Shown one piece after another: positions 20,388 through 36,570 of a DNA stretch of 64,000 bases. The notes beneath the pieces were generated by a model, which searched no databases, was not told the origin of the DNA, and saw only the letters and a list, made by a program, of their open reading frames with translations. The position numbers and the translations under genes were made by a program. Positions within the stretch are counted from its first letter, which is position 1, and each line of letters opens with the position of its first letter. The DNA comes from Lachnoclostridium sp. Marseille-P6806 (GTDB lineage: Bacteria; Bacillota; Clostridia; Lachnospirales; Lachnospiraceae), in contig NZ_LR130576.1 of assembly GCF_900625025.1 (NCBI RefSeq), positions 124,001 through 188,000 on the forward strand, written 5' to 3'.

Positions 20388-21545
20388 TCACATCCTGTCT
20401 CTTTTCTGCGCCCCGGTAAGCTCTGCCCCGGTAAGCTCTGCTTCAGTAAGCTCGCAGAACGCCGATGCCGTGTGTTCCCATGAAAAGCGATCCCGGAGGG
20501 TTTTCGCGTCGCGGGAGAGCTCTTCCGCAGACGGAGGCTCCGCCGTGATCCACTCCTCGATTTCCGCAAGGCTCCCGCACAGCCTGTGCCCCGACAGCCC
20601 CTGCAGCGTCACGGACGGGCCAAGGCCGGCAAACGCCGCCACGGAGGTTTCGTAATAGACGGCCTCCATGATCGCCATGCCGAAGATTTCCTCCCGGTTC
20701 GTATTGACAAAATAATCCGAGAGCACATAGAGCTTCCAGATCTCCGGAAAGGCGACCTGATCGATGATGCGCAGCTCTTTCTCCAGACCGTATTCCCGCG
20801 TCCTCTCCTCCATCGCCTCCCGGAGAGGCCCCCGTCCGACGATCAGGAGGCGGAAGCGTTTTCTGTCCCTGACATCCCGGAGGATTTCCAGAAGATCGAG
20901 CGGGCGCTTGTAATCCTCGAGCTTCGCAATGCAAAGGAGCACCACGTCCTCCGGAGCATAGCCGTACTCCCGGCGAAGCGCCTCCCGGTCGGCCTGTCTG
21001 AAATCGCTTTTGAGCGAGGCCTCATCGAGCCCCACCGGCGTGACCCGGATCTCGCTTTTCACCCCGAGACGGCGCAGCTCCCAAAGCGCCGATTCCGTTT
21101 TGGCAAGAACCGGCACCCGGCGATAGAGGCGCAGCGTCCCGCGGCGGAACAGCCAGTTCATGATATGCCCGTGCAGATTTTCGTAGACGCTGTGCGTCGT
21201 GCCCACGTAGGGCACAAAGACAATCCCGCGGCGCCGGCAGAAGCGGTACACATGAGGCAGAAACTGCTGCTGATCCGAAAAGCAGAGAAGACCGTCCATG
21301 TCTCCGTCCAGCACGGAGCAGCGAAGCCAGCCGTGCGCGCCGATATGACGGAGCGGAATATAACGGACGACAAGATTCTCAGCCGGCTCGCAGACCTCCG
21401 CGGGCTCCCCGCAGGGTACGCCCTTGTAGACCGTGACCGTATGCCCCATGCCCGCAAGCGCGCGGCCCAGACCGATCTCCTGACTGTTATAGAAGCCTCT
21501 TTTTCCGAAGCCATTTGTCATCGTGCAGAGAATACCCAGCTTCAT
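20388..21545 (-). CDS. Glycosyltransferase family 4
   Basis: 385 aa GT-B enzyme with an N-terminal MKLGILCTMTNGFGKRGFYNS and a donor half containing LLCIAKLEDYKRPLDLLEIL, IVGRGPL and NREEIFGMAIMEAVYYE. ATG 21545 is preferred over a longer frame to 21596 because it begins right after the GT2 stop (7 bases) and aligns with the family start. The C-terminus ends in a short direct repeat (ELTEAELTGAELTGA), apparently a small coding-repeat expansion. Confidence 0.86.
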   Translation of the reverse strand: MKLGILCTMTNGFGKRGFYNSQEIGLGRALAGMGHTVTVYKGVPCGEPAEVCEPAENLVVRYIPLRHIGAHGWLRCSVLDGDMDGLLCFSDQQQFLPHVYRFCRRRGIVFVPYVGTTHSVYENLHGHIMNWLFRRGTLRLYRRVPVLAKTESALWELRRLGVKSEIRVTPVGLDEASLKSDFRQADREALRREYGYAPEDVVLLCIAKLEDYKRPLDLLEILRDVRDRKRFRLLIVGRGPLREAMEERTREYGLEKELRIIDQVAFPEIWKLYVLSDYFVNTNREEIFGMAIMEAVYYETSVAAFAGLGPSVTLQGLSGHRLCGSLAEIEEWITAEPPSAEELSRDAKTLRDRFSWEHTASAFCELTEAELTGAELTGAQKRDRM

Positions 21546-21552
21546 AGCGAAA

Positions 21553-22464
21553 TCACCGTCTCCCGTTCCCGGATAACGCCCTGACGCGCAGCGCATTCAG
21601 AAGCCCGAACGGAACCCTTTCCCGCCGCATGAGGCAAAGCACCTTTGCCGCCGTACCAGGGCCGAAGCCCTGACGGAGCGCCATGCGGGTAAATTTCCAG
21701 CCTCCCTGCGAAAGGCTCCTGTAATCCTTTTTGCTGAGATGATCAAGAAGAAAGCGGCAGTACCGCGCGTCCGCGTCCGCACTGACAAGAAATGCCGCCG
21801 CATCCTGCGAGCGGCTGAGCGAGGCCCCGCTCGTCGTAATGCAGTACACCACATCCGGAAAGGCCTCAATGCTGCGGGCAAAAAAGCCGCTCCTTACGGA
21901 AAACATGACGTCCTCCGACACCCGGATCGTGTCGAAGCGGATCGCATGCCGCTCGATCAGTCCGCGCCGGATCATCCGGAAGCAGGGGCCGTAGGTCTTA
22001 TAGCGAAGCTGCAGCTCATTCCGGTGCGAGGGGCTGCGGACATAATCCTGCACCAGCCTCTCATAGCTCAGGTGCCGGTCCGCCGTCTGTTCCGTCCCCT
22101 CCAGAACGCTCGTGGGACAGAAGTAGACGATGTCCGCCGCGGACGAAAGATGCGCCGCAAAGCAGGCAAAGGCCCCGTCCGTGAAGAAGTCGTCCGAATC
22201 CGCAAAAAGCACCCACTTCCCCCGGGCCGCGTCGAGTCCCATATTGCGGGCAACCCCCGCGCCCTTTCCGGGCCCCGGATTTTCGAGAAAGACGCCGCCT
22301 CGCCGCTCTACCGTCTCCCGCAGCCGGCATATCTCATCCGCCGCCCCGCTCCGGTCGTCCACGACGATCAGCTCGATCCATGTCTCCTCCGGTATGGAGG
22401 AAAGAAGCCGCCCGATCCGGTCAAACGCCCGGTAATGCGGCACAATGATGCTAAGCTCCGGCAT
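21553..22464 (-). CDS. Glycosyltransferase family 2
   Basis: 303 aa GT-A enzyme: PELSIIVPHYRAFDRI, nucleotide-site VVDDRS, and the metal motif ADSDD in WVLFADSDDFF. The GAGGAGG site lies 8 bases before ATG 22464 and only 2 before ATG 22470, so 22464 is chosen. It is part of the exopolysaccharide operon and probably adds one sugar of the repeat. The donor is unknown. Confidence 0.86.
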   Translation of the reverse strand: MPELSIIVPHYRAFDRIGRLLSSIPEETWIELIVVDDRSGAADEICRLRETVERRGGVFLENPGPGKGAGVARNMGLDAARGKWVLFADSDDFFTDGAFACFAAHLSSAADIVYFCPTSVLEGTEQTADRHLSYERLVQDYVRSPSHRNELQLRYKTYGPCFRMIRRGLIERHAIRFDTIRVSEDVMFSVRSGFFARSIEAFPDVVYCITTSGASLSRSQDAAAFLVSADADARYCRFLLDHLSKKDYRSLSQGGWKFTRMALRQGFGPGTAAKVLCLMRRERVPFGLLNALRVRALSGNGRR

Positions 22465-22477
22465 CCTCATCGCCTCC

Positions 22478-24058
22478 TCACGGCGTCTCCTGCGCGCGGC
22501 ACGACAGCCCCTGCAGATAGGTCTGATCCTCCGCGCGTACAATAAAGCCCGCCTCCTCCGATGCCCCCGGAGCGATCTCGCTGTTCCACGAGAGCCCCGT
22601 GATCAGAAGACCGCTGTCCAGCGTCTGATACTCTGCACTCCAGCTTTCGGACAGCAGTGCCTCCTCATCGAGCCCCGCCTCCGCCTGCCAGCCGGGCAAC
22701 GTCGTTTTTCCGATATTGGTGACGCGGAGCACAAACTTCGTATAGCTCCTGCCGTCCTTTTCCCAGCAGTCCTCGGTCCGGAGCTCCGCGCGGAGCCGGC
22801 CCTCCTCATCCTCCGCCCGGATGCTCTCCTTTCGGAGCGGAGCCGTCCGACGGTGCGTGTACTTCTCCAGAAGCCAGCGCCCCTGCTCCGTCAGATCCTC
22901 CGGCGCGAGCGCCGTCATCTTTTCGCAGGAGGGCGCAAGGAGCGAGCTCGAGGCGGGCAGGTTGGACAGATTATAACACCCCCGCCCCACTAAGTAGCGG
23001 TCAAGGAGCGAAAGCCAAAGGTCCCCCTCCTTGCTGTTGACGGCTCCGTCTCCCGTCTGCTCGCTCAGGGCAAATTCCGAAACGATGACGGGAAACGACC
23101 GCTCCAGAGCCGCCTCGAGCTCCCTCTGACGCTCCTCCTTGTGGGACGCCGCGTAAAAATGATAAGCATAGAGCAGATTCTCTTCGGAAAGCGGCTTCTC
23201 CATCGCCTCCATGAGGCTCCCCGACCAGTCCGGCGTTCCCACAATGATCACGGCCTCCGGCGCATGCCGGCGGATCGCGGGGATGATCCTCCGGGCGTAG
23301 CTGCGGATATTGTCCCAGCTTCCGCCTCTCCCGTTCGGCTCATTGCATATCTCATACAGGATATTCTCCTGCCCGGCATACGTCCCGGACACAGCGGAAA
23401 AAAATTCCTCCGCCTCCGCCTGTCTTCTGCGCGGATCGCCGTCCTCCAGAACATGCCAGTCGACGATCACGTACAGGCCGAGCTCCGAGGCAAGACGTAT
23501 CCCTCTGTCCAGCAGCTCCGCCGGAGCCTCTCCGTCCGGCGCCGTCACTCCCGAAAGTGCGCCCGGCGGCACGGCAATGCGGATCGTATTGACATTCCAC
23601 TCATCCCGCATCCACGCAAAAATATCCCGGTTGATATAGCGGCTGTCCCAGCGGAAATCCACGAGGGCGACGCCCTGCATGAGAAAGCGCTCGCCGCAGC
23701 CGTCAAGAAGCGCCCCGTTCGTCACGCGGAGCGCTCCATGACGGGCAAACGGAGACAGCTCCTCCGCGGGTCTCCCCCGCCTGCCCGCAAAAAGCCATTC
23801 GCCGATGCTCCGATAAAATCTCGGGCAGTTCCCCGTCCGGAAGTCCGGATGAAAGCCTGAATAAAAGCCTGAATATCGAAGAAAAAGGATGAGTAGGGCC
23901 GCAAGGGCAAGCACCCCGGCAAGCCTCCGCCGCCGTCCGCCCGCAGACCGTTCCCGCGGGGAAGAGGAGCGCTCCGCCCCGGAGGCCCCCGGCGCGGAAT
24001 CAGAAGTCGGTTTTTTCGATGTCTCTCTGTATTTTCTCATTCTGCTTCCGATTGACAT
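22478..24058 (-). CDS. Membrane-anchored glycoside hydrolase family 5 with C-terminal cellulose-binding-like module
   Basis: 526 aa. A basic cytoplasmic head, one membrane anchor (about 46-60) and an extracellular GH5 (cellulase/mannanase clan A) domain (about 105-400). The catalytic acids are E240 in YEICNEPNG (acid/base) and E328 in IVSEFALS (nucleophile), with the family W-H pair in IVDWHVLE. Residues of about 425-526 resemble a CBM2/CBM3-type beta-sandwich (TNIGKTTLPGW and GLSWNSEIAPGAS). In a polysaccharide operon it probably trims or edits the product during export. The gene overlaps the AlgD-like gene by 59 bases; a start at 24040 is also possible. Confidence 0.82.
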   Translation of the reverse strand: MSIGSRMRKYRETSKKPTSDSAPGASGAERSSSPRERSAGGRRRRLAGVLALAALLILFLRYSGFYSGFHPDFRTGNCPRFYRSIGEWLFAGRRGRPAEELSPFARHGALRVTNGALLDGCGERFLMQGVALVDFRWDSRYINRDIFAWMRDEWNVNTIRIAVPPGALSGVTAPDGEAPAELLDRGIRLASELGLYVIVDWHVLEDGDPRRRQAEAEEFFSAVSGTYAGQENILYEICNEPNGRGGSWDNIRSYARRIIPAIRRHAPEAVIIVGTPDWSGSLMEAMEKPLSEENLLYAYHFYAASHKEERQRELEAALERSFPVIVSEFALSEQTGDGAVNSKEGDLWLSLLDRYLVGRGCYNLSNLPASSSLLAPSCEKMTALAPEDLTEQGRWLLEKYTHRRTAPLRKESIRAEDEEGRLRAELRTEDCWEKDGRSYTKFVLRVTNIGKTTLPGWQAEAGLDEEALLSESWSAEYQTLDSGLLITGLSWNSEIAPGASEEAGFIVRAEDQTYLQGLSCRAQETP

Positions 24059-25373
24059 TGATGTTTCCCCAGCTCAGCCCCTCATAATTGCCCTCATAGT
24101 CGAGCCGGTCATACTGGCGTACCAGATCCACAAGAATCCTGCCCGGGCAGTGTTCCGGAATATCCCGGAATTCCTCCTCCCGGTTGGCGATCACAATCAC
24201 ATCGCCGAACGCGAGCACCTCCTCCCGGTCGTCCGTGATCAGATCCAGAAGATAACCGTATTTCTTCTTCAGAAGCTCCGCGCCGACGCCGGTTTTCCAC
24301 GCGCGGAAGACATTCCGGTCGTAGATGCGGACAAGGTATCCCTTTCCGAGCAGGCTCTGCACAATCTCCATGATCGGGCTGTAACGAAGATCGTCCGTTC
24401 CGGACTTGAATGCCAGCCCCATGATACCGATTTTTTTCTTCCCTTTTGACTCGATGATCCGCAGGGCACCGGCTTTCTGGATTTCATTGGACGCGTGAAT
24501 GGAGCTGATCACCGGCGCGTCCACATACAGATCATGGGCCAGCGTCGTAAATGCGCGGAGATCCTTGGGAAGACAGGAGCCGCCGTAGGCAAAGCCCGGT
24601 CGGAAATAGTACGGGGAGATATTGAGCTGCGTGTCCCTGCAGAAAATATCCATCACCTTGGCGCTGTCGATATTCAGCTTTTTGCAGATATTCCCCACCT
24701 CATTGCCGAACACCACCTTGAGAGCATGGTAGGTGTTGTTGACATATTTCATCATTTCCGCGACTTCAATATCCGTCGAAATGAATTCCGCATCCATCGG
24801 CCGGTACAACTCGCGCAGCACGTCCGCCGCCCGTGAGCTTTTCGTTCCGACCAGCGTAAGGGGCGGATTCATGAAGTCCCTGACCGCGGACCCCTCGCGG
24901 AGGAACTCGGGGTTTGACACCACGGCAAAATCCCTGTTCGCCGTCTTTCCGGACACCTTTTCGATGATTTCCGTCACGTTCCGGTTGGTCCCCGGAAGCA
25001 CCGTACTCCGGATCACCACGATATGAAAGCTCTTTTTCTTCCTGAGCGCATCCCCGATTTTCTTGGCCGCCTGACAGATGTAATCCAGATTGAGATGCCC
25101 GTGGCCGGTCGTCGGCGTTCCCACCACAATAAAGGTAATATCCGTGCCGAGAACTGCCTGCTCCGGATCCTCCGTCGCCGTAAGGCGCCCCGCCTCCCAC
25201 TGCCCGCGTGTCAGCTCCTCGATCTTCTCCTCGATAATCGTCGGCATACCGCGGTTGATGAGAGCCACCTTTTCCGGCGAAATATCATAGCCGATGACAT
25301 GATGTCCCATCGACGCGCAGCACACGGCGCCCACACAGCCCACATAACCAAGTCCGAAATAACTGATGTTCAT
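24000..25373 (-). CDS. Nucleotide-sugar dehydrogenase, AlgD (GDP-mannose 6-dehydrogenase) type
   Basis: 457 aa. An NAD-binding Rossmann domain (GLGYVGCVGAVCCASMGH) is followed by the central dimer domain and a C-terminal UDP/GDP-sugar domain. The catalytic cysteine is C267 in FAYGGSCLPKDLRAF; in Pseudomonas AlgD it is at nearly the same position. From memory, STVLPGT, NPEFLREGSAVRD, YYFRPGFAYGGSC and FKSGTDDLR resemble AlgD more than UDP-glucose dehydrogenases, so the product is probably GDP-mannuronate; UDP-glucuronate cannot be excluded. The start at 25373 has AGGAGG upstream and the TTCGG leader motif. Confidence 0.82.
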   Translation of the reverse strand: MNISYFGLGYVGCVGAVCCASMGHHVIGYDISPEKVALINRGMPTIIEEKIEELTRGQWEAGRLTATEDPEQAVLGTDITFIVVGTPTTGHGHLNLDYICQAAKKIGDALRKKKSFHIVVIRSTVLPGTNRNVTEIIEKVSGKTANRDFAVVSNPEFLREGSAVRDFMNPPLTLVGTKSSRAADVLRELYRPMDAEFISTDIEVAEMMKYVNNTYHALKVVFGNEVGNICKKLNIDSAKVMDIFCRDTQLNISPYYFRPGFAYGGSCLPKDLRAFTTLAHDLYVDAPVISSIHASNEIQKAGALRIIESKGKKKIGIMGLAFKSGTDDLRYSPIMEIVQSLLGKGYLVRIYDRNVFRAWKTGVGAELLKKKYGYLLDLITDDREEVLAFGDVIVIANREEEFRDIPEHCPGRILVDLVRQYDRLDYEGNYEGLSWGNINVNRKQNEKIQRDIEKTDF

Positions 25374-25407
25374 TTTAATCCTCCTGCCGAAGCACCCCCG
25401 GCGAGGC
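25374..25407 (-). promoter_or_regulatory. Ribosome-proximal TTCGG motif before the AlgD-like gene
   Basis: Minus strand: GCCTCGC, a 6-base gap, GTGCTTCGGCAGGAGG and then the start codon. It overlaps the 3' coding end of the ydjC-type gene, so here it cannot be a free-standing leader and must work inside the operon mRNA. Confidence 0.45.
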
Positions 25408-26190
25408 GAGCGCCGCGTAGGTTGTCGTCCTCTCCGCCTGCTTCATAAGACGGGAAAGCCTGCTCTCCAGCTCCTCTCCGACGGCAAAGCCGTCGTCCGC
25501 AAACCGCTCCCTGTCCACAAGCACGCCTCTCCTGTCATAATCGGGATGAACCATGATTTCATTCACCCCCTCGTACAACGCCGCGTAATCCGTAATCCCG
25601 CCCATATGCCGCGTCGTCACAAAGCTCCCTGCCAGAGCGCGGTTATACCGTCCCCAGACGAAATTCCTCAGCAGGCCGTAATCCTCGGCGTTCTTATGCA
25701 GGCGGCACTTCTGGATCCCATATTCCCGCAGCACCTGCGCAAACACCGGCGTAAGCCGGAGATTTGTGTGCACATGATGATGGGAATCCGCGTGGCTTGG
25801 CTTCACGCCCTGCCCGAGCAGGCGCTTTGCCTGCGCCCGGAGCTCTCCGCGCAGCGCCTCTTTCTCCGCCCGGGTAAGCGGGATAAAATTGGTCCGCCTG
25901 TCCCGGAAATATCCGCTGAATTCCCAGCCGTTCCTCTCTCTGCGCACAAAGCGGCTGAAAGAGCACAGCTCTTTCGTGAGAGGGCGCCCCTCCGTCAGGT
26001 TGAAATGTATCCCGATTCTTCCGGCAAACTCCATATCGCCCCGGATCAGCCCCAGCGCCTCCGCCTCGGCCGCGCCGCCCGCCAGCATGGTCGTGTCGGT
26101 GATAAGTCCCCGACGGAACGCCTCATAAATCGCCCCCGTGCATGAGGCGCTCTGCCCGAAATCATCGGCGTTGATGATCACCGTGATCAT
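25375..26190 (-). CDS. YdjC/ChbG family carbohydrate deacetylase
   Basis: 271 aa. The metal-binding signature is clear: VIINADDFGQS at the N-terminus, H in GIHFNLTEG, and the His cluster HADSHHHVHTN. Family members remove acetyl groups from N-acetylated sugars such as diacetylchitobiose. In this operon it may deacetylate an amino sugar of the polysaccharide. It overlaps the preceding glycosyltransferase by 4 bases (ATGA) and ends one base before the AlgD-like start. Confidence 0.88.
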   Translation of the reverse strand: MITVIINADDFGQSASCTGAIYEAFRRGLITDTTMLAGGAAEAEALGLIRGDMEFAGRIGIHFNLTEGRPLTKELCSFSRFVRRERNGWEFSGYFRDRRTNFIPLTRAEKEALRGELRAQAKRLLGQGVKPSHADSHHHVHTNLRLTPVFAQVLREYGIQKCRLHKNAEDYGLLRNFVWGRYNRALAGSFVTTRHMGGITDYAALYEGVNEIMVHPDYDRRGVLVDRERFADDGFAVGEELESRLSRLMKQAERTTTYAALASPGVLRQED

Positions 26191-26969
26191 AGTCCTGCTT
26201 CCTTTCCGTCCGGGAGCCTAATCTCACCAAATTCCTCCTCCAGACCGCTGATCGGAAGCCTACGCCGGAAGAACAGCTCCGCCCGCCGTTTCCAGCCGAG
26301 ATCTCCTCCCCCCAGCCTCGAATGATTATCGCCGGTATCCTGCACATAGATCGTCGAAGGAAACGGGAGACGCTCCAGCGGCCTCCCCTGCGCCCGCAGA
26401 AGCTCCGGAACCTGCCGGTGCGGCCGGCGTATCACCCATTTCTCCCGCGGCGAGTCGTCCCAGAGATCCCGGGGCAGCTCCGGCGGGAGCTCCTCCGGCT
26501 CATAATGCACGATGGCGCAGGAACCGCAGACCCGGTGAGGCGCGCGGATCTTCCTGCAGCAGTCCGAGCCGTCGCGGTACAGATAGGCGCTGGCGGACAG
26601 AAAGCCGCTTTTCCCCGGATGCGCCGCGGCATAGGCCGCGATCCGGTGCGAAATGAGATCGTCAGCATCCACAAGCATCACATAGCCGCCGCCCAGCTCA
26701 CGGACCCGGCGCGCGATCATCGACACCTTCCACCCCTTGTCCAGCATCATCTCCTCCCGCGAGGCCGGATACGGCGTCTCCGCGCGGAGGAACTCCACCC
26801 GCGGATCCGTGCGCAGCCCCTCCGGGATATCGTGGCAGGCCACCAGCACTTTGAATTCGGGCGACGTCTGCCGGCAGACGGAGCGGAGCGTCCGTTCAAA
26901 CTGCGCGGACACGCGCCCCCAATCCCGGGAGACCGCCTTGGCCCGGAGCGGCACTCCAAAATAAATCAT
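26187..26969 (-). CDS. Putative glycosyltransferase (GT-A like)
   Basis: 260 aa, family uncertain. It begins MIYFGVPLRAK, and has a GT-A-like metal motif VDADD in YVMLVDADDLIS and a conserved core around TLRSVCRQTSPEFKVLVACHD. ATG 26969 is preferred because GGAGG lies 5-6 bases ahead, and it gives the typical ATGA overlap with the flippase stop (26966). A longer frame to 27323 is not used. It is probably a sugar transferase of the repeat unit, with no specificity visible. Confidence 0.7.
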   Translation of the reverse strand: MIYFGVPLRAKAVSRDWGRVSAQFERTLRSVCRQTSPEFKVLVACHDIPEGLRTDPRVEFLRAETPYPASREEMMLDKGWKVSMIARRVRELGGGYVMLVDADDLISHRIAAYAAAHPGKSGFLSASAYLYRDGSDCCRKIRAPHRVCGSCAIVHYEPEELPPELPRDLWDDSPREKWVIRRPHRQVPELLRAQGRPLERLPFPSTIYVQDTGDNHSRLGGGDLGWKRRAELFFRRRLPISGLEEEFGEIRLPDGKEAGL

Positions 26970-28471
26970 GACTTCCTCCATGGGAGCATCAGCACCCCGA
27001 TCACGGCTCCGGTCACAAGGGCCCCCGCCCCCGCCTTGACGATGAGCGCCGTCCATGTGAGAGCCGCCGGCAGCGCCCGCGCAAGCAGCAGCGCCGCTCC
27101 CGCTCCTGCGAGGAACGCCGCGATGTGGCGCAGAATGACCGGATAGAACGTTGTGAGCTTCACCCCCATACAGTGCGCCGCGTAGAGCGGCGTATCGATG
27201 AAATGCACGCCGTTCAGCGCCAGCGTCGTCAGCACCACGGCGTAGGCCCCCATCTGCGTGCGGCGGAGCAGCAGATACATCGCCGCGACATTGGCCGCTC
27301 CCATCCCGAGGGTGATAAAGCACGGCACGCGGAGCTTTTTGGTCAGCGTAAATACGTAATAAAGAGGATTGACCACGCCGACCGAAACATCGCTCAGCAG
27401 AACAATGATGCAGAGCGTATAGATAAACGGAATATTCTGCTCCGGGATCCAGAGCGAGAGAAAATCCCTGCCGCAGACCAGAAACACAGCGATAATCAGG
27501 CTGCTGAACGCCCCGGTGAAGCGCATGGTTTTCTTATAGAGCGCAATCTGTTCGCTCCGGCGTCCCGCGGCATACAGCAGAAGCTGCTTCGGCTGAAAGG
27601 ACTCGCTGACCCTCTTGACGAGGGAATAGCAGATCATTCCGATGTTTTTCGCAATGGAGATCTCTCCCAGCACCGTCGCGTTCAGGAGCAGATCCGTGAT
27701 CAGCAGATCGAGGCCGCTGTTCAGCACGTCTCCCATATTGTTGAGAGAATTCCATATCCCCGCCGTCACCAGCTCGCGGACCGCCCCGAGCGAGCACGCC
27801 TCCCTGCGAAAACGCAGCTCCGGCGTGAACTTCCGCGTCACGCCCCGGTAGCGGACCAGCAGATAGAGAGATGCCGCGGCATAGGCGATTCCCACATACC
27901 ACACGCGCGGCGCCAGCAGCGTGCAGAGAAGGAGCGCCGCGAGAGCCTGCAGGATATATCCCCCGCTCCGGATCCTCTCCGCAATATCGAGCCGGTTGGC
28001 AATGAACGCAGAGCTGTTATAGGCCGTCCGCAGGAGCGTCAGAAAGTAATTGACCAGAATGGCCGCAAACAGAATTTTCACATCCGTCCGAAGCTGCTCC
28101 GGAATCCGGATAAAATCCTGAAGCCTCGCGATCAGCGCCGTTCCGGGAATGAGGAGCGCCACGGAGAGCACTAGATTCCCCGCCGTCACGGAGGAGAAAA
28201 ATTCATTCGCCCTCTTCTTCTCCCCCCGATGATAGGCGACGGAAATAAAGCGCGACGCATAAGTATTCAGGCCGATGGCGATAATATCGATGTAGCTGGT
28301 AAACGTCATCGCGAGCGAAACAAAGCCGTAGGCCTCCACCCCGATATTGCCCGTGATATAGGGCGTGATGAAAAAGTTCATGAGGTAGTTGATGAGGACC
28401 GCCGCAATGGACCAGACCATATTCATGAAAATAGCCCGTTCATCACCGCCGGACCTATCTTCTCTTCTCAT
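26966..28471 (-). CDS. Polysaccharide flippase, Wzx-like (MOP superfamily)
   Basis: 501 aa with 12-14 hydrophobic segments, starting with an N-terminal WSIAAVLINYLMNFFITPYITGNIG typical of Wzx-type flippases. It would move the lipid-linked repeat unit across the membrane. ATG 28471 has GGGAG 6 bases upstream and overlaps the VanZ gene by 17 bases. Confidence 0.85.
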   Translation of the reverse strand: MRREDRSGGDERAIFMNMVWSIAAVLINYLMNFFITPYITGNIGVEAYGFVSLAMTFTSYIDIIAIGLNTYASRFISVAYHRGEKKRANEFFSSVTAGNLVLSVALLIPGTALIARLQDFIRIPEQLRTDVKILFAAILVNYFLTLLRTAYNSSAFIANRLDIAERIRSGGYILQALAALLLCTLLAPRVWYVGIAYAAASLYLLVRYRGVTRKFTPELRFRREACSLGAVRELVTAGIWNSLNNMGDVLNSGLDLLITDLLLNATVLGEISIAKNIGMICYSLVKRVSESFQPKQLLLYAAGRRSEQIALYKKTMRFTGAFSSLIIAVFLVCGRDFLSLWIPEQNIPFIYTLCIIVLLSDVSVGVVNPLYYVFTLTKKLRVPCFITLGMGAANVAAMYLLLRRTQMGAYAVVLTTLALNGVHFIDTPLYAAHCMGVKLTTFYPVILRHIAAFLAGAGAALLLARALPAALTWTALIVKAGAGALVTGAVIGVLMLPWRKS

Positions 28472-29156
28472 GCACCACTCCCGAAAGGAGGCAGACCGCC
28501 CAGCCTCCGAGTGCCGCCCCCGCCGTGTTGGCGGCAATGTCCATGATATCGCACTGACCGAGCCTCAGCATAAGCTGCACCGACTCGATAAACGCCGAGA
28601 GCATCAGACCGCCGATGGCGGCAGGAACAAAATTTTCCGGCTTTTTCCTGTCAAGAAAGGTCACAAGCACGCCGAACGGGACAAAGAGCAGCACGTTCCG
28701 GAACGCATGCCTGAGCCAGTAGGACGAGAACGCCTCCGAACGCCCCGGGCCCGACAGGATATTCGTCATCCGTATCACTCTGTCCTGCTGCTCTCCGCGG
28801 GAGAGGAGCGTCAGCGAAAAGATCAGCGCGACATACAGCAGGAGAAACAGCAGAGCCTCCCGCCGGATTGTTTTCCCGGAACGAAGCAGCGTCGGAAGCG
28901 ACCGAAAGAAGAAAAACGCCGAGCCGGCAACGAGAAGTCCCGTCAGCAGAAGCTCCGTGCCTCCCAGCAGGGCGGACAGGTACAGCACCGCGGCAGAGAC
29001 GCCGCCGAAAATCACAAACAGCGTCAGTGCAATCGCAGGCGCCGCCCGGCGGTCACGGCAGCGCGAAAGGAGCTTTCCAAGAAAAATGAAATATCCGCAC
29101 AGCAGAACAATTCCGCAGAGAATCAGCTGTGCCGGCTGTATGTCGTTTCGTCCCAT
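28455..29156 (-). CDS. VanZ family membrane protein
   Basis: 233 aa with about five membrane segments. The VanZ-like core is in the second half (RNVLLFVPFGVLVTFL, ESVQLMLRLGQCDIMDIAANTAGAALG). VanZ-like proteins occur in many Gram-positive surface-polymer loci, but their chemistry is unknown. ATG 29156 overlaps the preceding polymerase gene by 34 bases. Longer reading to 29447 would lie inside that gene and is not supported. Confidence 0.8.
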   Translation of the reverse strand: MGRNDIQPAQLILCGIVLLCGYFIFLGKLLSRCRDRRAAPAIALTLFVIFGGVSAAVLYLSALLGGTELLLTGLLVAGSAFFFFRSLPTLLRSGKTIRREALLFLLLYVALIFSLTLLSRGEQQDRVIRMTNILSGPGRSEAFSSYWLRHAFRNVLLFVPFGVLVTFLDRKKPENFVPAAIGGLMLSAFIESVQLMLRLGQCDIMDIAANTAGAALGGWAVCLLSGVVHEKRR

Positions 29157-30418
29157 ATCCTGCGGATTCTCCCCCGGGAGGCAGGCTTCTGACAGGCCGC
29201 TCCCATCGCCATAAAGAAAAACAGCGTGAAATAATTGTAGGTTCCAAAGGCCCGCTCCGTGAGTCCGTGCATCATCGTATGGAGAAGAAAGGCGCTGCAG
29301 AAGAGGTACTGCGGTTCCGGCAGCTCCCGTATTCTCTTCGTCGCATCGAGGAGCATGACAAAATACGCCGCGATGCCGAAAAGCCCCGTGTTCAGCCAGA
29401 ATTCCAGCAGAACATTGTGCGCCCCCGTCGTCATCATCGAGCCCCATGAATCCCGCTTGAAGCCGGAATGGTACAGGGCGACCGCCCGCGCATCGCGCCA
29501 GAACATTTCATAGCCGTAGCCGGTCCATGTATGTGTCTGCAGCATCATGGAAATAATGCGCCTCCATAATACCGTCCGTCCCGTCAGCGTCGCGTCTTTC
29601 CCGATGAGTGCAAAGGCCGGCCCGAAAACCGGCAGCAGCGTCAGGGCAAAGACGAGGAAGCCGACGCTCACCAGAATATACAGCAGTCCCGGCCGGAGTC
29701 TCCCGGAAACACCGCGCCGCTTTTCGATCAGCAGGATGTACCAGACCGGCACCACCGCAAACAGCACTGCGCCTGCCGCGCGGCAGGAGATCAGAAGCAC
29801 AATCTGCAGCGCAAGAAGGGTAAGAAAAGGAATGCCCACCGGGCGTCCCTCGTCTCTTCGGATGCGGTAGAGAACCATCTGCATCAGGATCCCGCAGGAA
29901 AACTCCCCGGCCGCAGTATTTTTGGTCGGCAGAATCCCGATAAAGGCTCCGCTCCCGCGGTCGAAAGCCGTCTGGGGCGACACGGCGATCATCAGAATCG
30001 ACGCAGCCAAAAAAAGAAACTGTGCATAACAGACCAGCTCCAGGAGCTCCCCCAGCTCATAGCGTTCCACCAGCCAGAGGGCAAAGAACACCGTGACGGA
30101 GAAGCGCAGACAGGTGATCAGCTGCGCCCCCGGATACCGCGTAACCAGCATAGATTCCAGAAAAAACACCGCCGTCAGCAGATAGACCGACCGATATCGG
30201 GGCCGCATACGGATAAGACGGAGCTCCTGGAAGCTCTCTCCGCTCGAAAGCAGCATGACGGCGGCCTGCAGGACGAAAGCGGCATATTCCGCTGCCGTCT
30301 CCGCCCCCTCGCCGATAAAGCCCGCATAACTCCCCGGAAAGCCCAGACTGACCAGTGTGACAAAGATGACGATCACATCATAAATTCGATTCTTTTCTGT
30401 CCGTGTCAGAGCGTTCAT
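29123..30418 (-). CDS. O-antigen polymerase/ligase family membrane protein (Wzy-like)
   Basis: 431 aa with 10-12 hydrophobic segments. The Wzy_C signature region is visible: GRTVLWRRIISMML, THTWTGYGYEMFW and GAHNVLLEFWLNTGLFG. Proteins of this type polymerise lipid-linked repeat units outside the membrane. ATG 30418 is preferred, with GGAGG 11 bases upstream; an alternative start is at 30439. It overlaps the 3' end of the chain-length gene by 41 bases. Confidence 0.84.
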   Translation of the reverse strand: MNALTRTEKNRIYDVIVIFVTLVSLGFPGSYAGFIGEGAETAAEYAAFVLQAAVMLLSSGESFQELRLIRMRPRYRSVYLLTAVFFLESMLVTRYPGAQLITCLRFSVTVFFALWLVERYELGELLELVCYAQFLFLAASILMIAVSPQTAFDRGSGAFIGILPTKNTAAGEFSCGILMQMVLYRIRRDEGRPVGIPFLTLLALQIVLLISCRAAGAVLFAVVPVWYILLIEKRRGVSGRLRPGLLYILVSVGFLVFALTLLPVFGPAFALIGKDATLTGRTVLWRRIISMMLQTHTWTGYGYEMFWRDARAVALYHSGFKRDSWGSMMTTGAHNVLLEFWLNTGLFGIAAYFVMLLDATKRIRELPEPQYLFCSAFLLHTMMHGLTERAFGTYNYFTLFFFMAMGAACQKPASRGRIRRIWDETTYSRHS

Positions 30419-32039
30419 CCGCCTGCTTTCCTCCGGCATCCGGCCCTTTCCACGAGCCGTCCATTCCCATCCGGATCAGCGCATCCACCGCGTCCTCGTC
30501 GGAAATTGCCGCCGTGCTCTCCGGCTCCGGCGCCGTCTCATCCAGGCTGGCCAACGGATCGCGGTACGCCGTCCTGTGGTGCTCCTCCGGCCGGTACTCC
30601 TTTGAGAATCCCCCCATGGCTGCCTCCCGCAGCCTCTTCTCGCGCGCCTTTTCCGCAGCCTCGGCCGCTTCTGCCTCCAGGCGGTTCCGGGCGACGCTCA
30701 CCGGCTGTCCGTTCACAATGCTGCCCAGCATGCGGATGCCGGATTTTTCAAGCTTCTCAATCGCATTCTCGATGTCTGTCAGCGTCGCCTGATCATAGCC
30801 GATCATGAACAGCGCCGCGTCCGCCACCTGATTGAGCGAAAGGACGTCCGAAACCTGGCCGACGGGCGAGCTGTCAATGATCACATACTCGTAGCGCGTC
30901 TTCATCATCTCAAGAAAGCTGAACAATGTTCCATCGAGCGTGACGGCATTGTGCTCCAGAATCAGGGGGAGCACATCGAGAAAGCCGTCCACGGTTACAA
31001 TCGCCTCCTCCGGCGTCGCCTCTCCCTTATACAGAGCATTCAGCGAATGGCTGTAATCCGGAGCGGAAAGGAAAAGGCTGCCGAGGCTGGGCGCCCTTTT
31101 GTCCAGATCAACCAGCAGAACTCTGTGCTCCATCTCCGCGAGCCGCAGCGCGATATTGGCCGCCGCCGTCGTCTTGCCCTCACCGTCCATGGTCGAGGTG
31201 ATATAGAAGCAGTGATGCTTTTTCTTTGAACCGAGGAGATTGCGGATGATGTATGCGGAAGCCGCAAAATTCTGTTCCACGGCCGCCCCGTGCCGGCCAC
31301 CGGACGGCGTTCCCCGTCTGCCGGCCGTCGCCTCCCCTTTCGGAATGATTCCGATGGTCTCCATATTCAAAATCTCACCGACATCCTTCGTGTTGATCAG
31401 CGTCGGACGCATCAGCAGGTCAAGCAGAGCTACGCCGATCCCTGCGAGCAGACCCACGCCCGCCAGCACGCCGATCATCAGGTAGAACGAAGCGGCGCCG
31501 AGACGCCGGCCCGCCACCGGCTCGTCGATCACTGCCACCGAGCCCACCTTAAGCGTCTCCGGCAGGACCGTGCGGGAGACCTCGAGTATCGCCGTCATGA
31601 GCGAAACGCCCTCCTCCGCATTCTTCCAGTCGAGCGTGACCTCGATGATCTGCGTATCATTGTAGCGCGACAGCGTCATGCTTCTCGCCACATCTCTCGG
31701 AGAAACATCCCGGATCCCGGTCGCCGAAATGGCCTGCTTCAGGACTCTCTCACTCTTCATGACATAGCCGACCGCATCCGCCATATCCTCAGCCAAATAG
31801 AAGTCTCCGGTCGTGATCGTCTCATTGTTTGAGGTGAAGTTTCCGTTCATCACCTGCGCCGTCACGGCAAAGGAACAGGTGATCTCATAATTTCTGCTGT
31901 TCCCCCGCAGGTATGAGATCGCTGTCATGGCGGCGCCGGTCCCCATTCCGAGGATCGTCAGCGCAAGCATCAGCTTCCAGCGCTTCCCCATGGCATAAAG
32001 CAGATCTCCAATCCGAATTTGCACGCCGCTGCTGTTCAT
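30378..32039 (-). CDS. Chain-length determinant fused to a BY-type tyrosine kinase (Wzz-Wzc like)
   Basis: 553 aa. The Wzz part spans two membrane segments (about 22-42 and 184-208) around an extracellular region. A cytoplasmic BY-kinase follows, with Walker A in STMDGEGKTTAAAN, Walker A' in VLLVDLDKRAPS and Walker B in YVIIDSSPVGQ. In many Firmicutes these two parts are separate proteins; here they are fused. The C-terminal tail is charged and has only two tyrosines near EYRPEEHHRTAYRD, not the usual Tyr cluster. It should control polymer length together with the polymerase encoded next. Confidence 0.88.
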   Translation of the reverse strand: MNSSGVQIRIGDLLYAMGKRWKLMLALTILGMGTGAAMTAISYLRGNSRNYEITCSFAVTAQVMNGNFTSNNETITTGDFYLAEDMADAVGYVMKSERVLKQAISATGIRDVSPRDVARSMTLSRYNDTQIIEVTLDWKNAEEGVSLMTAILEVSRTVLPETLKVGSVAVIDEPVAGRRLGAASFYLMIGVLAGVGLLAGIGVALLDLLMRPTLINTKDVGEILNMETIGIIPKGEATAGRRGTPSGGRHGAAVEQNFAASAYIIRNLLGSKKKHHCFYITSTMDGEGKTTAAANIALRLAEMEHRVLLVDLDKRAPSLGSLFLSAPDYSHSLNALYKGEATPEEAIVTVDGFLDVLPLILEHNAVTLDGTLFSFLEMMKTRYEYVIIDSSPVGQVSDVLSLNQVADAALFMIGYDQATLTDIENAIEKLEKSGIRMLGSIVNGQPVSVARNRLEAEAAEAAEKAREKRLREAAMGGFSKEYRPEEHHRTAYRDPLASLDETAPEPESTAAISDEDAVDALIRMGMDGSWKGPDAGGKQADERSDTDRKESNL

Positions 32040-32042
32040 AGT

Positions 32043-33785
32043 TTATTTCTCCGTTTCAGAAGTCTCTGCACCATGCTGCACCGTTTCCGCGCTCTTTTTT
32101 CCCCTACGCGCTCTTCCTCTGCGGATCGCCGCTGCAAAGCGGCGGAGAAGCCAGATCAGCAGGAACAGCGCAGCGGCTCCTGCCGCAATGGCCGCCGCGA
32201 GTACCGCGGCTCCCGGGAGTGTCACGACGGCAATGTGGATCTCCTGCACGCCGGCCGTATCCTGCACCGTGAAGTCAAAGCGCCTGTTCTGTCCTTTCCC
32301 GCTCAGAATATAGTAATTTCCGGCTTTCAGAGCTGTGAACATTCTGGCGGATACCGCCGAGCTCCACTGCTCCACAAGGCGTCCTCCGCTTTCATACAGC
32401 GCAAGCTCCCTGCCCTCGATCGGCGTTCCCCAGATCTGATCCACCGCACTGACGGAAACCCGCAGCATCCGATTGGTCAGCTCCGCCGTCTTCGTCGTTT
32501 TGCCATCGATCCGGCCGCGTGCATCCACGGCAATCCGATCCGGCTGCACCGCCGCGGCATAGTCGCCTGTCGACGAAAGCTGACGCACCTCATATTCCGT
32601 GCCTTTTTCAAGATCTGTCAGCGTGATCTTTCCTGCGGTATCGGTAGTCAGCGTCTGCACCTCGCCCGTACGGTTCTCCGTGATCTCATAAACCGCGCCG
32701 GCGATCGGCATGTCCGGATACAGCTCATCCGTCAGATGCAGAACGATGCCTGTTTTGGAGACCTGCGCCATCGTAACGACTGCTCCGGCCGCCTCGGCGC
32801 CGACCTTCCCGGGCCTCGGTCCCGCCGCCTCCGCTTCCGTTTTCTTTTTCACCGTAACCGGAATAGCCGCGGCCACGGATGCATAATATTCCGGTATTTC
32901 CGTCTGCTTCAGAGAATACTTGCCAAGATAGAGCTCGATGCTCTCTCCGTAGCCGGTATCGTCCAGACGGATGGTGTCGACTACGCTCCCTTTCTCATAG
33001 CGGACCGTTCCGTCCTTTGTGGTCACCGCCTCCGCCGCGACAACGTCAAAGGCCGCGCCGCCGACGGCCTCTCCACTCCCCGCATCCTCCATCTGAACCC
33101 GAATGATGTTTCTGGATGGGGACATCTCCACCTGAACAAGAAGGGGATCGGGCCAGTCATAGAGCTGATCAACCGTAAACTCCGTATTCGGCGCAATGTC
33201 GTAGCCCTCCGGGGCCGTGAGATCCCGGAGATAATAATTCCCCTGATATACCTTTTCCGGCAGATAATAGCTGCCGTCCCGCCGGGTCGCGTACTGCCGA
33301 TAGGAGATCTTTTCCGGATAGTAGGTGTTCAGGATCTCCATCGCGCCGTTTTTCTCATACAGCTCGAACGTAATGTCCGAAATACGTATCCTGCGCTTTG
33401 TCTCCTCGTCGACCACCTCGACATAGACCGCCGATTTGATCCCCTCGTCCTCGCCCGGCCGATCTCCCTCTTCGTCCCCGTTTCCGCCGCCTCCTCCGCT
33501 CTCTATGGTGATCACATTCGTAATTCCCTCTCCCGCACCGTCATTTTCGGATTCGCCGATCTGATCCCAGCTGTTTCCTTCGCTTTTTTCCTCTGTCGCC
33601 CCGGTTTCAGTGGTGTCCGTATAGCCATTCGTGATATCCCCCTCGATCGTAGCCGGCGTATACAGCATATAGAGCAGAAGAAGAATCATGATCAGCAGCA
33701 GAATCAGAAGCAGCGCCGTCATCAGATCCGACGAGGACTGCCAGAAATTGATCTCTTCACCGTGTCTTTTGTTTCTCTTTTTCAT
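32043..33785 (-). CDS. MotB/ExbD-like membrane protein with Cna-B-like extracellular domains
   Basis: 580 aa. The N-terminus (INFWQSSSDLMTALLL) matches the start of MotB-type ion-channel subunits, with D20 at the place of the proton-carrying Asp at the head of TM1 (about 22-42). MotB would continue into an OmpA-like wall-binding domain. Here there is an acidic linker (45-117) and then about four beta-rich segments resembling Cna-B/SpaA prealbumin-like repeats (about 118-220, 227-310, 345-440, 441-520), then TM2 (about 524-548) and a basic cytoplasmic tail. No LPXTG signal is present. It lies 9 bases after the channel-EAL gene, its obvious partner. The domain combination is not one I know. Confidence 0.75.
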   Translation of the reverse strand: MKKRNKRHGEEINFWQSSSDLMTALLLILLLIMILLLLYMLYTPATIEGDITNGYTDTTETGATEEKSEGNSWDQIGESENDGAGEGITNVITIESGGGGGNGDEEGDRPGEDEGIKSAVYVEVVDEETKRRIRISDITFELYEKNGAMEILNTYYPEKISYRQYATRRDGSYYLPEKVYQGNYYLRDLTAPEGYDIAPNTEFTVDQLYDWPDPLLVQVEMSPSRNIIRVQMEDAGSGEAVGGAAFDVVAAEAVTTKDGTVRYEKGSVVDTIRLDDTGYGESIELYLGKYSLKQTEIPEYYASVAAAIPVTVKKKTEAEAAGPRPGKVGAEAAGAVVTMAQVSKTGIVLHLTDELYPDMPIAGAVYEITENRTGEVQTLTTDTAGKITLTDLEKGTEYEVRQLSSTGDYAAAVQPDRIAVDARGRIDGKTTKTAELTNRMLRVSVSAVDQIWGTPIEGRELALYESGGRLVEQWSSAVSARMFTALKAGNYYILSGKGQNRRFDFTVQDTAGVQEIHIAVVTLPGAAVLAAAIAAGAAALFLLIWLLRRFAAAIRRGRARRGKKSAETVQHGAETSETEK

Positions 33786-33794
33786 CGTATCCGC

Positions 33795-35378
33795 TTATGC
33801 CTCACCCCGACTCTCCTGCTGCATGAGTTTCTCATATTCCTCCACGGAAAGCGGCTTGGAGAAATAATATCCCTGTCCCTGCGTACAGCCGTTCTTGCGA
33901 AGAAGATTAAGCTGCTCCATATTTTCAATACCCTCGGCAACGATATTCAGACCCAGCTTCTTTGCCTGCTCCAGAACCACTCCGATGGAACTCCGGGAAT
34001 TTTCGCTCTCCAGATAGCGCAGATCAAGCTTGAGGCAGTCCGCGCCGATATGCCCGACCGCATTCAGCGAAATAAAGTCTCCTGCGAAGCCATCCACCGC
34101 CACCTGGAATCCCTCGTCCATGAGACGGGACTCGATCTCAAGACAGACACTGTGCGTCATAAGATAAGCGTTTTCTGCAATCTCAATTTCAAGATACCGG
34201 GGAGGAATCCGGTACTTCGTGCGCATTGAGGAAAAAAAATCCGGCACATCGAGAGCAAGCACATCCATTCTGGTCACATTGACCGATATAGGGAGGATAC
34301 GCATTCTCTGATCCATCCAGATGCGGATTCTGGCACACACCGCTTCCCAGATATACTGATCCAGCTTGGTGATATAGCCGTTGTTCTCCAATACCGGAAT
34401 AAAGGTTCCGGGGGAAAGCATCCCGAGCGTCGGATGGTTCCAGCGGACCAGGGCCTCCGCACCGACCATCTTTCTCGTATTCAGATCATAGCGGGGCTGC
34501 AGTAAAAAAACAAACTCGCCGTTCTTAAGCCCCTCCAGAATCTGCGGCATGAGAATCTGCTCATTGTGCGATACCATTGCCGTCGCCGCCGACCCCGTAG
34601 CGGAAGAAGCTGCCGAATAGCCGGGATTTTTCGGAAGCCTGTTCAAAAGCTCGATCACCCGACGGCTCTCCTTTCTCTCGCGGTATCTTGCCTGTTCCTC
34701 CACCGTGGGAATCACCTGCTTATGAAATTCCTCCGTAAAGAAATCAAGCTCCCGGAGCATCATATTCCACGATACCTTGTGTATGATATTGAACAGGATG
34801 GAGAGAATGACGCCGGAAATCGACGTATAAAACGCGGTTTCGATGCCCGCCAGCAGGGTCTGGACGCTGATAAGAGCCGCATTGACCGAGCCGAAGCCGA
34901 CGTTCTGCAGGCCGAGAATCAGTCCGGTGAACGTCCCGAGGATGCCGAGTCCGGTCAGCGTTCCGGGGATCTGCCCGATGACTCCCTGCCAGCTCCGGAC
35001 CGCGAGCACGTCCTCGTTGATATAATCCTCCACATCGCTGAGGATCTGTCCGGATTCCTGCTGTGTCCGCAGCTTATCGCGGTATCCGTCAAACAGACGG
35101 TTCAGCGTCCGCTGATGGAAGATATTCTCCATCCGGGAAAAGGCCGACCATACGGAATCCGACTGAACCTCCTCTGCACTCCGTATGCTCCGCACGCCGC
35201 GCCGGAAACCCGATGCGAAAGAAAGCGTCGGAAACAGCCCCACAACCACCCCAAGCAAAAGAATCGCCAGCATCACCGCAGCAAAGACAAGCGAAATGGA
35301 ATCCGGCGAATACGCGGCAAGAAAGCCGCCGGCGATCAGCATGACCGCAATTCCCAGATTTGTCAGAAGTCTCAGCAT
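33795..35378 (-). CDS. MotA/TolQ/ExbB channel protein fused to an EAL domain
   Basis: 527 aa. Two N-terminal membrane segments (about 6-24 and 29-48), a cytoplasmic loop, then the MotA/TolQ/ExbB core with GTLTGLGILGTFTGLILGLQ and ETAFYTSISGVILSIL (about 116-230). After a short Ser/Ala linker comes a complete-length EAL domain (about 272-516). EAL residues kept: E308 (EALVRW), N367, E397, D429, K450, D452, E482 and Q502. The second Asp of the DDFG metal motif is Gly (VDGFAGD), so c-di-GMP hydrolysis is doubtful and binding more likely. ATG 35378 is chosen (GGTGA 5 bases ahead); the ATG at 35390 lies inside the conserved leader motif. Confidence 0.85.
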   Translation of the reverse strand: MLRLLTNLGIAVMLIAGGFLAAYSPDSISLVFAAVMLAILLLGVVVGLFPTLSFASGFRRGVRSIRSAEEVQSDSVWSAFSRMENIFHQRTLNRLFDGYRDKLRTQQESGQILSDVEDYINEDVLAVRSWQGVIGQIPGTLTGLGILGTFTGLILGLQNVGFGSVNAALISVQTLLAGIETAFYTSISGVILSILFNIIHKVSWNMMLRELDFFTEEFHKQVIPTVEEQARYRERKESRRVIELLNRLPKNPGYSAASSATGSAATAMVSHNEQILMPQILEGLKNGEFVFLLQPRYDLNTRKMVGAEALVRWNHPTLGMLSPGTFIPVLENNGYITKLDQYIWEAVCARIRIWMDQRMRILPISVNVTRMDVLALDVPDFFSSMRTKYRIPPRYLEIEIAENAYLMTHSVCLEIESRLMDEGFQVAVDGFAGDFISLNAVGHIGADCLKLDLRYLESENSRSSIGVVLEQAKKLGLNIVAEGIENMEQLNLLRKNGCTQGQGYYFSKPLSVEEYEKLMQQESRGEA

Positions 35379-35477
35379 AATAGTCACCATCCCGAAGCAC
35401 TTTATTGATCAAGGACTATTTGGGCTTCGGCACAAACAGCCGTGTAAAAATCAGCGTATCCGCATGAATTTTTACAC
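35379..35477 (-). promoter_or_regulatory. Structured 5' leader of the channel-EAL gene
   Basis: Minus-strand order: a 10-bp perfect inverted repeat (35468-35477 with 35442-35451); a hairpin with stem 35433-35441 / 35413-35422 and a 10-nt loop (35423-35432, read TGCCGAAGCC); then GTGCTTCGG (35392-35400), complementary to the loop, right before the GGTGA ribosome site. Homologous arrangements precede guaB and dapB. Confidence 0.7.
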
Positions 35478-35518
35478 TGTCCTCCATTCCGTTCTTCTCC
35501 TGACCGGACAGGCAGCGC

Positions 35519-36564: not shown

Positions 36565-36570
36565 AACGCG

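Follow-up and report, generated by a model that had tools for sequence, protein, structure and literature searches.

Certain gut bacteria seem to possess a machine of three genes, with an ion-motor pair related to ZorA-ZorB encoded together with a polysaccharide co-polymerase. In the window, by which is meant the whole 64,000-nucleotide stretch of DNA analysed here, a sequence-only reading had described two of these genes as a pair, but the true unit is larger and is a trio of motor A subunit, MotB-like subunit and co-polymerase (Table 1). Whether the trio works as one envelope machine, with an ion-driven motor powering or gating the co-polymerase under the control of c-di-GMP or of a tyrosine kinase, is in our judgement evenly balanced. 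Known motors of this superfamily serve flagellar rotation, gliding, secretion, the energising of the outer membrane and phage defence. Among the matches listed for open-licence PubMed Central there was no description of such a motor with an EAL domain or with polysaccharide, nor was any tie between such an ion motor and a polysaccharide co-polymerase found in print there. If the proposal is true, capsule or exopolysaccharide assembly in Clostridia would be supplied with energy directly and switched directly by c-di-GMP, and nature would offer variants that seem to have swapped motor, kinase and c-di-GMP control for each other.

The three-gene unit and its distribution

The motor gene of the window probably has its true start at 35378. 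Searches of the window and of eight EAL-type loci gave no known RNA element at gathering scores ahead of the gene run. Two pairs of inverted repeats lie in 35300-36600 and are unremarkable.

Table 1. The trio and the genes annotated beside it, in window positions
Feature	Position	Strand
ZorA/MotA-like motor subunit, EAL domain at the C-terminus	33795..35390	-
MotB/ZorB-like subunit; at the N-terminus a TM helix bearing Asp20, then a Gly-rich linker, four beta domains resembling SpaA/Cna-B, and a C-terminal TM helix followed by a tail	32043..33785	-
Wzc/CapAB-like polysaccharide co-polymerase with BY-kinase domain (the constant third gene)	30378..32039	-
Wzy-type polymerase (Wzy_C / O-antigen ligase family)	29123..30439	-
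VanZ-like membrane protein	28455..29447	-
Wzx-type flippase (Polysacc_synt)	26966..28537	-
YdjC-like protein	25375..26190	-
UDP-glucose/GDP-mannose dehydrogenase	24000..25373	-
GH5 cellulase-family protein with CBM2 domain, within the gene run	22478..24058	-
Glycosyltransferase family 2	21553..22542	-
Glycosyltransferase group 1	20388..21596	-
Asparagine synthase-type amidotransferase	18540..20384	-
Glycosyltransferase group 1	17255..18484	-

The trio was found in 15 of 15 loci whose contig was long enough, with the co-polymerase always the next gene, and these loci represent three or more families of Clostridia; the two motor genes were together in every locus seen. These loci are the window, nine of ten named homologues and five genomes in which the motor has no EAL domain. 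The tenth homologue, L082, sits on a contig that stops too early and does not figure in the counts of partners and co-polymerases or in the tree. The motor genes of L082, L083 and L084 are near-copies of one another, so the 15 loci amount to about 14 independent ones. Strong co-polymerase matches (at least 268 bits) numbered 16 in 15 genomes and 15 of them adjoined the motor, while the sixteenth (L108) lies at a contig start whose overlap with a trio contig from that genome is 87 identical bases long. All remaining matches scored at most 77.2 bits, except for one of 102 bits, which is the latter half of a frameshifted gene in G017.

In a class sample of 391 genomes, with three co-polymerase candidates scored per genome, the motor was present in G000, G461 and G767 and a strong co-polymerase in precisely these three, the next best reaching 124 bits; a fourth motor match (G776) was an ordinary OmpA-type pair. 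The probability of such co-occurrence by chance, with kinship ignored, is 1e-7, rising to 1.3e-5 when the query genome is dropped. Motor and co-polymerase distances were correlated (0.91) across 13 systems, a set without the near-copy L084 and without L087, whose gene is broken. Two genomes (L105 and L107) have the trio alone, flanked by two tRNA genes. When ordinary ZorAB-like loci of 5.6-19 kb were searched by tblastn, such a co-polymerase was found in 0 of 11, and in both of the two trio controls. Polymer assembly, one of the outputs suggested earlier, has genomic support because the constant neighbour of the motor is a polysaccharide co-polymerase, though shared inheritance is no proof that the two touch.

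The motor core and its membrane-anchored partner

The predicted single-chain model of the motor-EAL protein has a core at residues 1-248, a low-confidence linker at 249-275 and the EAL domain at about 275-528. PF01618 matches the core at 3.3e-8 (33.8 bits, above the cut-off of 22.9), and a profile built from ten motor cores matched the ZorA structures 8vvn (4.3e-15) and 8qyd (7.5e-13), so that by sequence search ZorA chains are its nearest solved relatives; the structure-search rows (VIA, Foldseek) given for the MotA-EAL model are EAL structures. The fusion of a MotA/TolQ/ExbB core to an EAL domain was read correctly, the core being ZorA-like. The motor-EAL gene is the sole MotA_ExbB match in its own genome and a flagellar stator was rejected on this ground.

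ZorA T147 and S184, which we take to be pore-lining, align with T153 and S190 of the motor (read off the printed alignment), and the latter two are conserved in 15 of 15 trio members. The N-terminal helix of the partner is matched by the ZorB N-terminal profile and carries Asp20 in 14 of 15 trios. Core, helix and pore residues together make ZorA-ZorB, the motor of the Zorya antiphage system, the closest solved relative, and support an ion-driven type of motor as originally claimed. ZorA-ZorB has been solved as 5:2 complexes in which a Ser/Thr ring encircles the ZorB Asp (PMC11890865, excerpt). The exception among the trios is L089, which has Ala in place of Asp20 together with T189A, yet retains all three genes; ion flow there may be dispensable, or the system may be decaying.

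The differences from ZorA-ZorB are substantial. Where ZorA has a long cytoplasmic tail the trio has an EAL domain or nothing, where ZorB has a peptidoglycan-binding domain it has SpaA arms with a further TM helix, and the trio motor has a linked co-polymerase. The ordinary ZorAB-like pairs found in the same bacterial family share the two-gene layout and 27-36% core identity with the trio motors, but form a separate clade (100/99 support) and, unlike the EAL-bearing motors, have a tail without an EAL motif in 14 of 14 loci of the order sample.

The partner has a predicted hydrophobic helix at each end in 15 of 15 trios. SpaA domains were found in all 15 and OmpA in none, against OmpA in six of six ordinary ZorAB-like partners scanned. 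MotB-like subunits can thus exist without a wall anchor, and the four Cna-B/SpaA segments, Asp20, second membrane anchor and missing OmpA domain of the sequence-only reading have all held up. Display of the arms as adhesins found no direct support, as LPxTG is absent and each end of the protein is a predicted membrane helix. The arms have pilin-type folds; a sortase-dependent pilin was rejected, as LPxTG was searched for and absent in 15 of 15 trio partners, and the Lys/Glu/Asn pattern of isopeptide bonds, judged by eye, is not conserved in the arms. The kinase of RUG087 has a SpaA-type domain after it, on the presumed cytoplasmic side, which fits poorly with SpaA domains as exclusively outside arms.

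The EAL domain and the co-polymerase

The EAL fold is present in the motor-EAL protein. Across ten motor EALs (L082 left out) the second Asp of DDFGTG is lost in every one, to Gly in nine and Ser in one, whereas it is kept in all ten control EALs, a set from which L032 and L033 were left out and in which L035 ends before the last three positions. Loop 6, which is essential for EAL activity (PMC12943098, excerpt), departs from the usual form in all ten motor EALs and also in one control (L006). Most EAL ligand residues are gone in L088. E312, N371, D433, K454 and Q506 are retained in 9 of 10 motor EALs, and R316 and E486 in 10 of 10, in ligand roles that we assign presumptively by alignment. 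Because the second catalytic Asp is lost, the motor EAL is, as far as its residues tell, probably a c-di-GMP receptor rather than an enzyme, and the suggested cutting of c-di-GMP is unsupported. Nor is the EAL domain an essential part of the unit, since it is missing in five trio genomes. Control by c-di-GMP is plausible. GGDEF proteins were found in 16 of 16 genomes, and it counts against the proposed machine that the five with EAL-less trios also hold many of them. The degenerate EAL receptors FimX and LapD, both among the structural matches, likewise combine an EAL fold with lost catalytic residues, unlike the present domain in that theirs is not fused to an ion-motor subunit. LapD binds c-di-GMP and does not cut it. 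The same has been described for FimX (PMC12943098, excerpt).

The co-polymerase has two predicted TM helices (23-41 and 187-205), Walker A, A' and B motifs and an AAA_31 match above the Pfam cut-off, and its structure matches are VpsO (4.7e-17), CapA1/CapB (3e-14) and Wzc (1.3e-8). Pfam Wzz was not among the matches of the window co-polymerase and its NCBIfam matches were all below cut-off; TIGR01006 covers residues 7-234 at 1.5e-11, but with only 44 bits against a cut-off of 296. Two TM helices and a BY-kinase domain are shared with the PCP-2 co-polymerases Wzc and CapAB, from which the trio protein differs in adjoining an ion motor and in lacking the Tyr-rich tail in 10 of 10 EAL-bearing members (at most 2 Tyr per 20 residues in the window). 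The maximum number of Tyr per 20 residues of kinase tail was 0-3 in the ten EAL systems, 4-6 in all five EAL-less ones and 6-8 in six of six controls (six of seven second-tier co-polymerases, the split L119 being left out), a contrast that comes from about two clades and may represent one event, and in which 3 versus 4 Tyr is a narrow gap at the edge. The Walker A lysine of the kinase is lost in 4 of 10 EAL systems, two of them near-copies and L088 among them. Drift to pseudokinases is known for the BY-kinases EcpK and HfsB (PMC12004946, excerpt).

A possible mechanism and its alternatives

From homology and the pore residues we infer that five MotA-like subunits ring a MotB-like dimer at its pair of N-terminal helices to give a ZorAB-type ion-driven motor. 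The force generated at Asp20 would be delivered within the outer face of the membrane, since the MotB-like subunit has no wall-binding domain and, after its flexible linker and the four beta domains of pilin type, returns to the membrane with a second helix. Its presumed recipient, by contact and in a direction that we likewise postulate, would be the co-encoded co-polymerase/BY-kinase, whose cycle of assembly and opening the motor strokes might drive or gate; in this way they would set how long the polymer of the Wzx/Wzy pathway becomes, or its export or release. In most known members the degenerate EAL that each motor subunit carries on its cytoplasmic side would bind and sense c-di-GMP and switch the motor; EAL-less members keep the Tyr-rich co-polymerase tail, so tyrosine phosphorylation may do the switching there. 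Co-polymerase assembly and disassembly are normally governed by a tyrosine-phosphorylation cycle. A bolder and somewhat doubtful proposal is that the trio is a third mode of running a Wzx/Wzy machine, in which a motor run by ion-motive force and physically coupled to the co-polymerase through membrane-anchored pilin-type arms replaces this cycle and c-di-GMP on the dead EAL of each motor subunit is the throttle.

Precedents for parts of this mechanism exist. We know of no co-polymerase partner, EAL domain or pilin-type arms in the AglRQS motor of Myxococcus. With Nfs/Exo it is, like the trio, a motor of the same superfamily handling surface polysaccharide, but there the polymer is moved around the spore via the Nfs complex (PMC3858216, excerpt). 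ExbBD-TonB and TolQR-TolA are ion-driven and pass force to a third membrane protein (PMC12505986, excerpt), as the trio would to its co-polymerase, although they act on the outer membrane.

Several other readings must be weighed against a motor-driven co-polymerase. The trio might be a sensor rather than a power unit, its outside arms sensing polymer or surface contact, core and EAL relaying this to the co-polymerase/kinase and ion flow being a mere trigger. The motor core has a sensing role in Zorya, the kinase domain would be a natural output, and L089 retains the unit without Asp20. Zorya also uses the same core for defence and not for propulsion (PMC11890865, excerpt). However, Asp20 (14/15) and the Ser/Thr pore residues (15/15) persist across divergent members, and with the Walker A lysine lost in 4 of 10 EAL systems (two near-copies) kinase signalling is not the common output; this reading is unlikely, though the least so of the alternatives. 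A surface-motility or adhesin machine similar to AglRQS, moving arms or secreted polymer along the cell with the polysaccharide as slime or track, is less probable again. It would draw on the pilin-type folds of the arms, on the lack of a further MotA_ExbB protein in the same genome and on the Agl motor's transport of glycan strands on Myxococcus spores (PMC3858216, excerpt), but the arm protein has predicted membrane helices at both ends and neither LPxTG nor OmpA, those neighbours with a named function are polysaccharide genes and in two genomes the trio has only tRNA genes on either side.

That the EAL is an active phosphodiesterase, with the motor just a membrane anchor for a local c-di-GMP sink next to the polymer machine, would suit the retention of E312, N371, D433, K454 and Q506 (9/10) and E486 (10/10). 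It is decidedly unlikely given the residue losses, namely the change of the second DDFGTG Asp to Gly or Ser in 10 of 10 where controls keep it in 10 of 10, and the altered loop 6 (10/10, though also in L006), a loop essential for activity (PMC12943098, excerpt); five trios, moreover, have no EAL. Lastly, that a polysaccharide locus has captured a divergent antiphage system of Zorya type is suggested by matches of the PADLOC and NCBIfam ZorA/ZorB profiles to the core (PADLOC ZorA1 2.5e-18, ZorB1 1.5e-6), but cut-offs and context make it very unlikely indeed. The best NCBIfam ZorA score was 58.3 bits against a cut-off of 100 and that of ZorB1 19.2 against 400, the Pfam-scanned neighbours are polysaccharide genes, two trios lie between tRNA genes, and the ZorA tail and the ZorB OmpA domain are both replaced, whereas the same PADLOC search gave ZorA, B, C and D matches for the true Zorya I of L043, a distant genome.

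The co-polymerase as third gene

The sequence-only reading had taken the motor-EAL gene and its MotB-like partner for a pair, but a co-polymerase/BY-kinase is the third gene in every locus with enough contig (15/15), and the real unit is this trio, not the motor pair alone. The original observation thus stands confirmed, its interpretation upheld in part and turned in a new direction. The window co-polymerase matches the solved structures of VpsO (4.7e-17), CapA1/CapB (3e-14) and Wzc (1.3e-8); the Wzz profile was not among the matches of its Pfam search. Sixteen strong matches to it (at least 268 bits) were found in 15 genomes and 15 adjoin a motor, while the sixteenth (L108) is a contig start sharing 87 identical bases with the trio contig L080. 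The remaining matches reached 77.2 bits at most, except one of 102 bits that is the second half of the frameshifted gene of genome G017. The trio co-polymerase forms a distinct kind.

In a class sample of 391 genomes a strong co-polymerase was found only in the motor genomes G000 (the query genome), G767 and G461, the next best match being 124 bits, and the chance of such 3/3 co-occurrence is 1e-7 (1.3e-5 when the query genome is left out), kinship being ignored in both. Inspection by eye of seven second-tier co-polymerase loci revealed no adjoining arm or motor gene, and tblastn against 11 loci with ordinary, ZorAB-like pairs (5.6-19 kb each) found such a co-polymerase in none, with 2/2 controls recovered. 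Distances of motor and co-polymerase were correlated (0.91, 13 systems, Mantel p 1e-4 without species-history correction). Five genomes of family f66 have a trio with a motor subunit of only 246-278 aa, without EAL, and two of these (L105, L107) sit between two tRNA genes. The GH5/CBM2 protein of the window is possibly a polymer-trimming enzyme.

Coordinates of trio loci and neighbouring features
Contig	Positions	Feature
L105	7199-11325	EAL-less trio
L105	6977-7050; 11391-11462	flanking tRNAs
L107	2616-6633	EAL-less trio
L107	2403-2476; 6685-6756	flanking tRNAs
L081	13312-15669	co-polymerase, two additional hydrophobic helices at far C-terminus
L089	8885-10957	co-polymerase, two additional hydrophobic helices at far C-terminus
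L089	7199-8866; 5634-7199	genes of the system with Asp to Ala and T189A
L089	1911-4823	970-aa protein, EAL-like start (by eye), upstream of motor genes, RUG12517
L087	13067-14403	co-polymerase gene over two frames (G017/RGIG5178); frameshift or assembly error
L080	3790-6117	RUG087 co-polymerase with apparent SpaA-type extension
L108	1-966	co-polymerase match at contig start, RUG087
Window	22478-24058	GH5 cellulase-family protein with CBM2 domain, within polysaccharide gene run
L043	2339-14455	type I Zorya in a distant relative (PADLOC ZorA, B, C, D matches)

Motor, arms and force

A profile of ten motor cores matched the solved ZorA chains 8vvn (4.3e-15), 8qyd (7.5e-13) and 8vvi (6.1e-7), which are the only convincing solved relatives; a glutamate transporter, next in that search at 0.003 or worse, was taken as chance. 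NCBIfam and PADLOC both call the motor genes ZorA-like and ZorB-like, NCBIfam with scores under its cut-offs. In the printed alignment T153 and S190 of the window fall on ZorA T147 and S184, which line the ZorA pore, and both window residues are kept in 15/15 systems, Asp20 in 14/15. PMC11890865 describes a ring of Ser/Thr packed around the ZorB Asp in Zorya. The relatives and pore residues favour the ion motor that had been proposed, which would be a 5:2 assembly conducting ions. The sole Asp20 exception, L089, has Ala in its place and T189A in the motor subunit; its motor is possibly dead or driven differently. All three of its genes are still open despite these changes.

The SpaA arms first read from the window are confirmed in 15/15 trio partners, OmpA being found in 0/15 of these and in 6/6 ordinary partners scanned. 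The trio partners all lack a wall-binding domain and have a second membrane helix (15/15), which suggests force transfer inside the membrane; the MotB-like subunit would hand the force to the two-helix co-polymerase, presumably in contact with the motor. TolQR hands force to TolA and ExbBD to TonB, and the likeness lies in transfer within the membrane to a third protein, in the trio the co-polymerase. This picture is resisted by the RUG087 co-polymerase, in which the kinase appears to be succeeded by SpaA-type domains (in L080, Pfam 3.3e-8) expected inside the cell. These domains are like those carried by the MotB-like subunit, and another co-polymerase of this kind comes next.

Kinase tail and control

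In the accepted view, PCP-2 co-polymerases alternate between an octameric and a monomeric state, driven by phosphorylation of their Tyr-rich tail; pseudokinase variants are also known (PMC12004946). The maximum of Tyr per 20 residues past the kinase domain was 0-3 in EAL-bearing systems (10/10), where L080 is cut by the contig end and L087 was counted in the second frame, whereas it was 4-6 in EAL-less systems (5/5); second-tier controls had 6-8 (6/6). The Walker A lysine is substituted in 4/10 EAL-bearing systems (L080, L083, L084, L088), but retained in 5/5 without EAL. These losses fit a replacement of kinase control by control through the motor and c-di-GMP, which the EAL domain would bind. 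The contrast in EAL, tail and Walker A may represent one divergence event.

Distribution and known systems

One scan of genome contigs gave 12 loci, two of them ordinary pairs and ten of MotA-EAL type. The ten are all from metagenome-assembled genomes, with ruminant gut stated or implied in the records, which name Lachnospiraceae, Ruminococcaceae, Oscillospiraceae, Christensenellaceae, Erysipelotrichaceae and Blautia; two double as sampled genomes (L087 is G017, L088 is G461). Low counts in samples that overlap one another indicate that the system is rare: a strong partner match in 2/62 of the genus, a core match at E 1e-12 in 15/392 of the order (only the own genome being of the MotA-EAL/trio kind, the EAL motif absent from the other 14 loci), a motor match in 4/391 of the class, one an ordinary pair, then 1/398 of the phylum, 5/98 of the family of G767 and 1/6 of that of G461. 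Yet it occurs in at least three families (f1, f34, f66). A tree of 29 cores split 15 trio systems from 14 ordinary ones by a branch with 100/99 support.

The nearest functional precedent is the AglRQS motor of Myxococcus, which carries glycan strands (PMC3858216). A survey of MotAB relatives (PMC12505986) places ZorAB as a remote homologue, and a term search of that text found neither 'polysaccharide' nor 'c-di-GMP'. Open-licence literature yielded neither a MotA-EAL fusion nor a motor-linked co-polymerase, and the trio is a real, rare and conserved machine, undescribed within the literature searched. ZorAB-like pairs recur in Lachnospiraceae (L037, L038, L039, L040, L041, L042, L091), where no adjoining Zorya effector was obvious by eye. 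Next to the type I Zorya of L043 lies a protein of 1470 aa that begins with a P-loop-like stretch.
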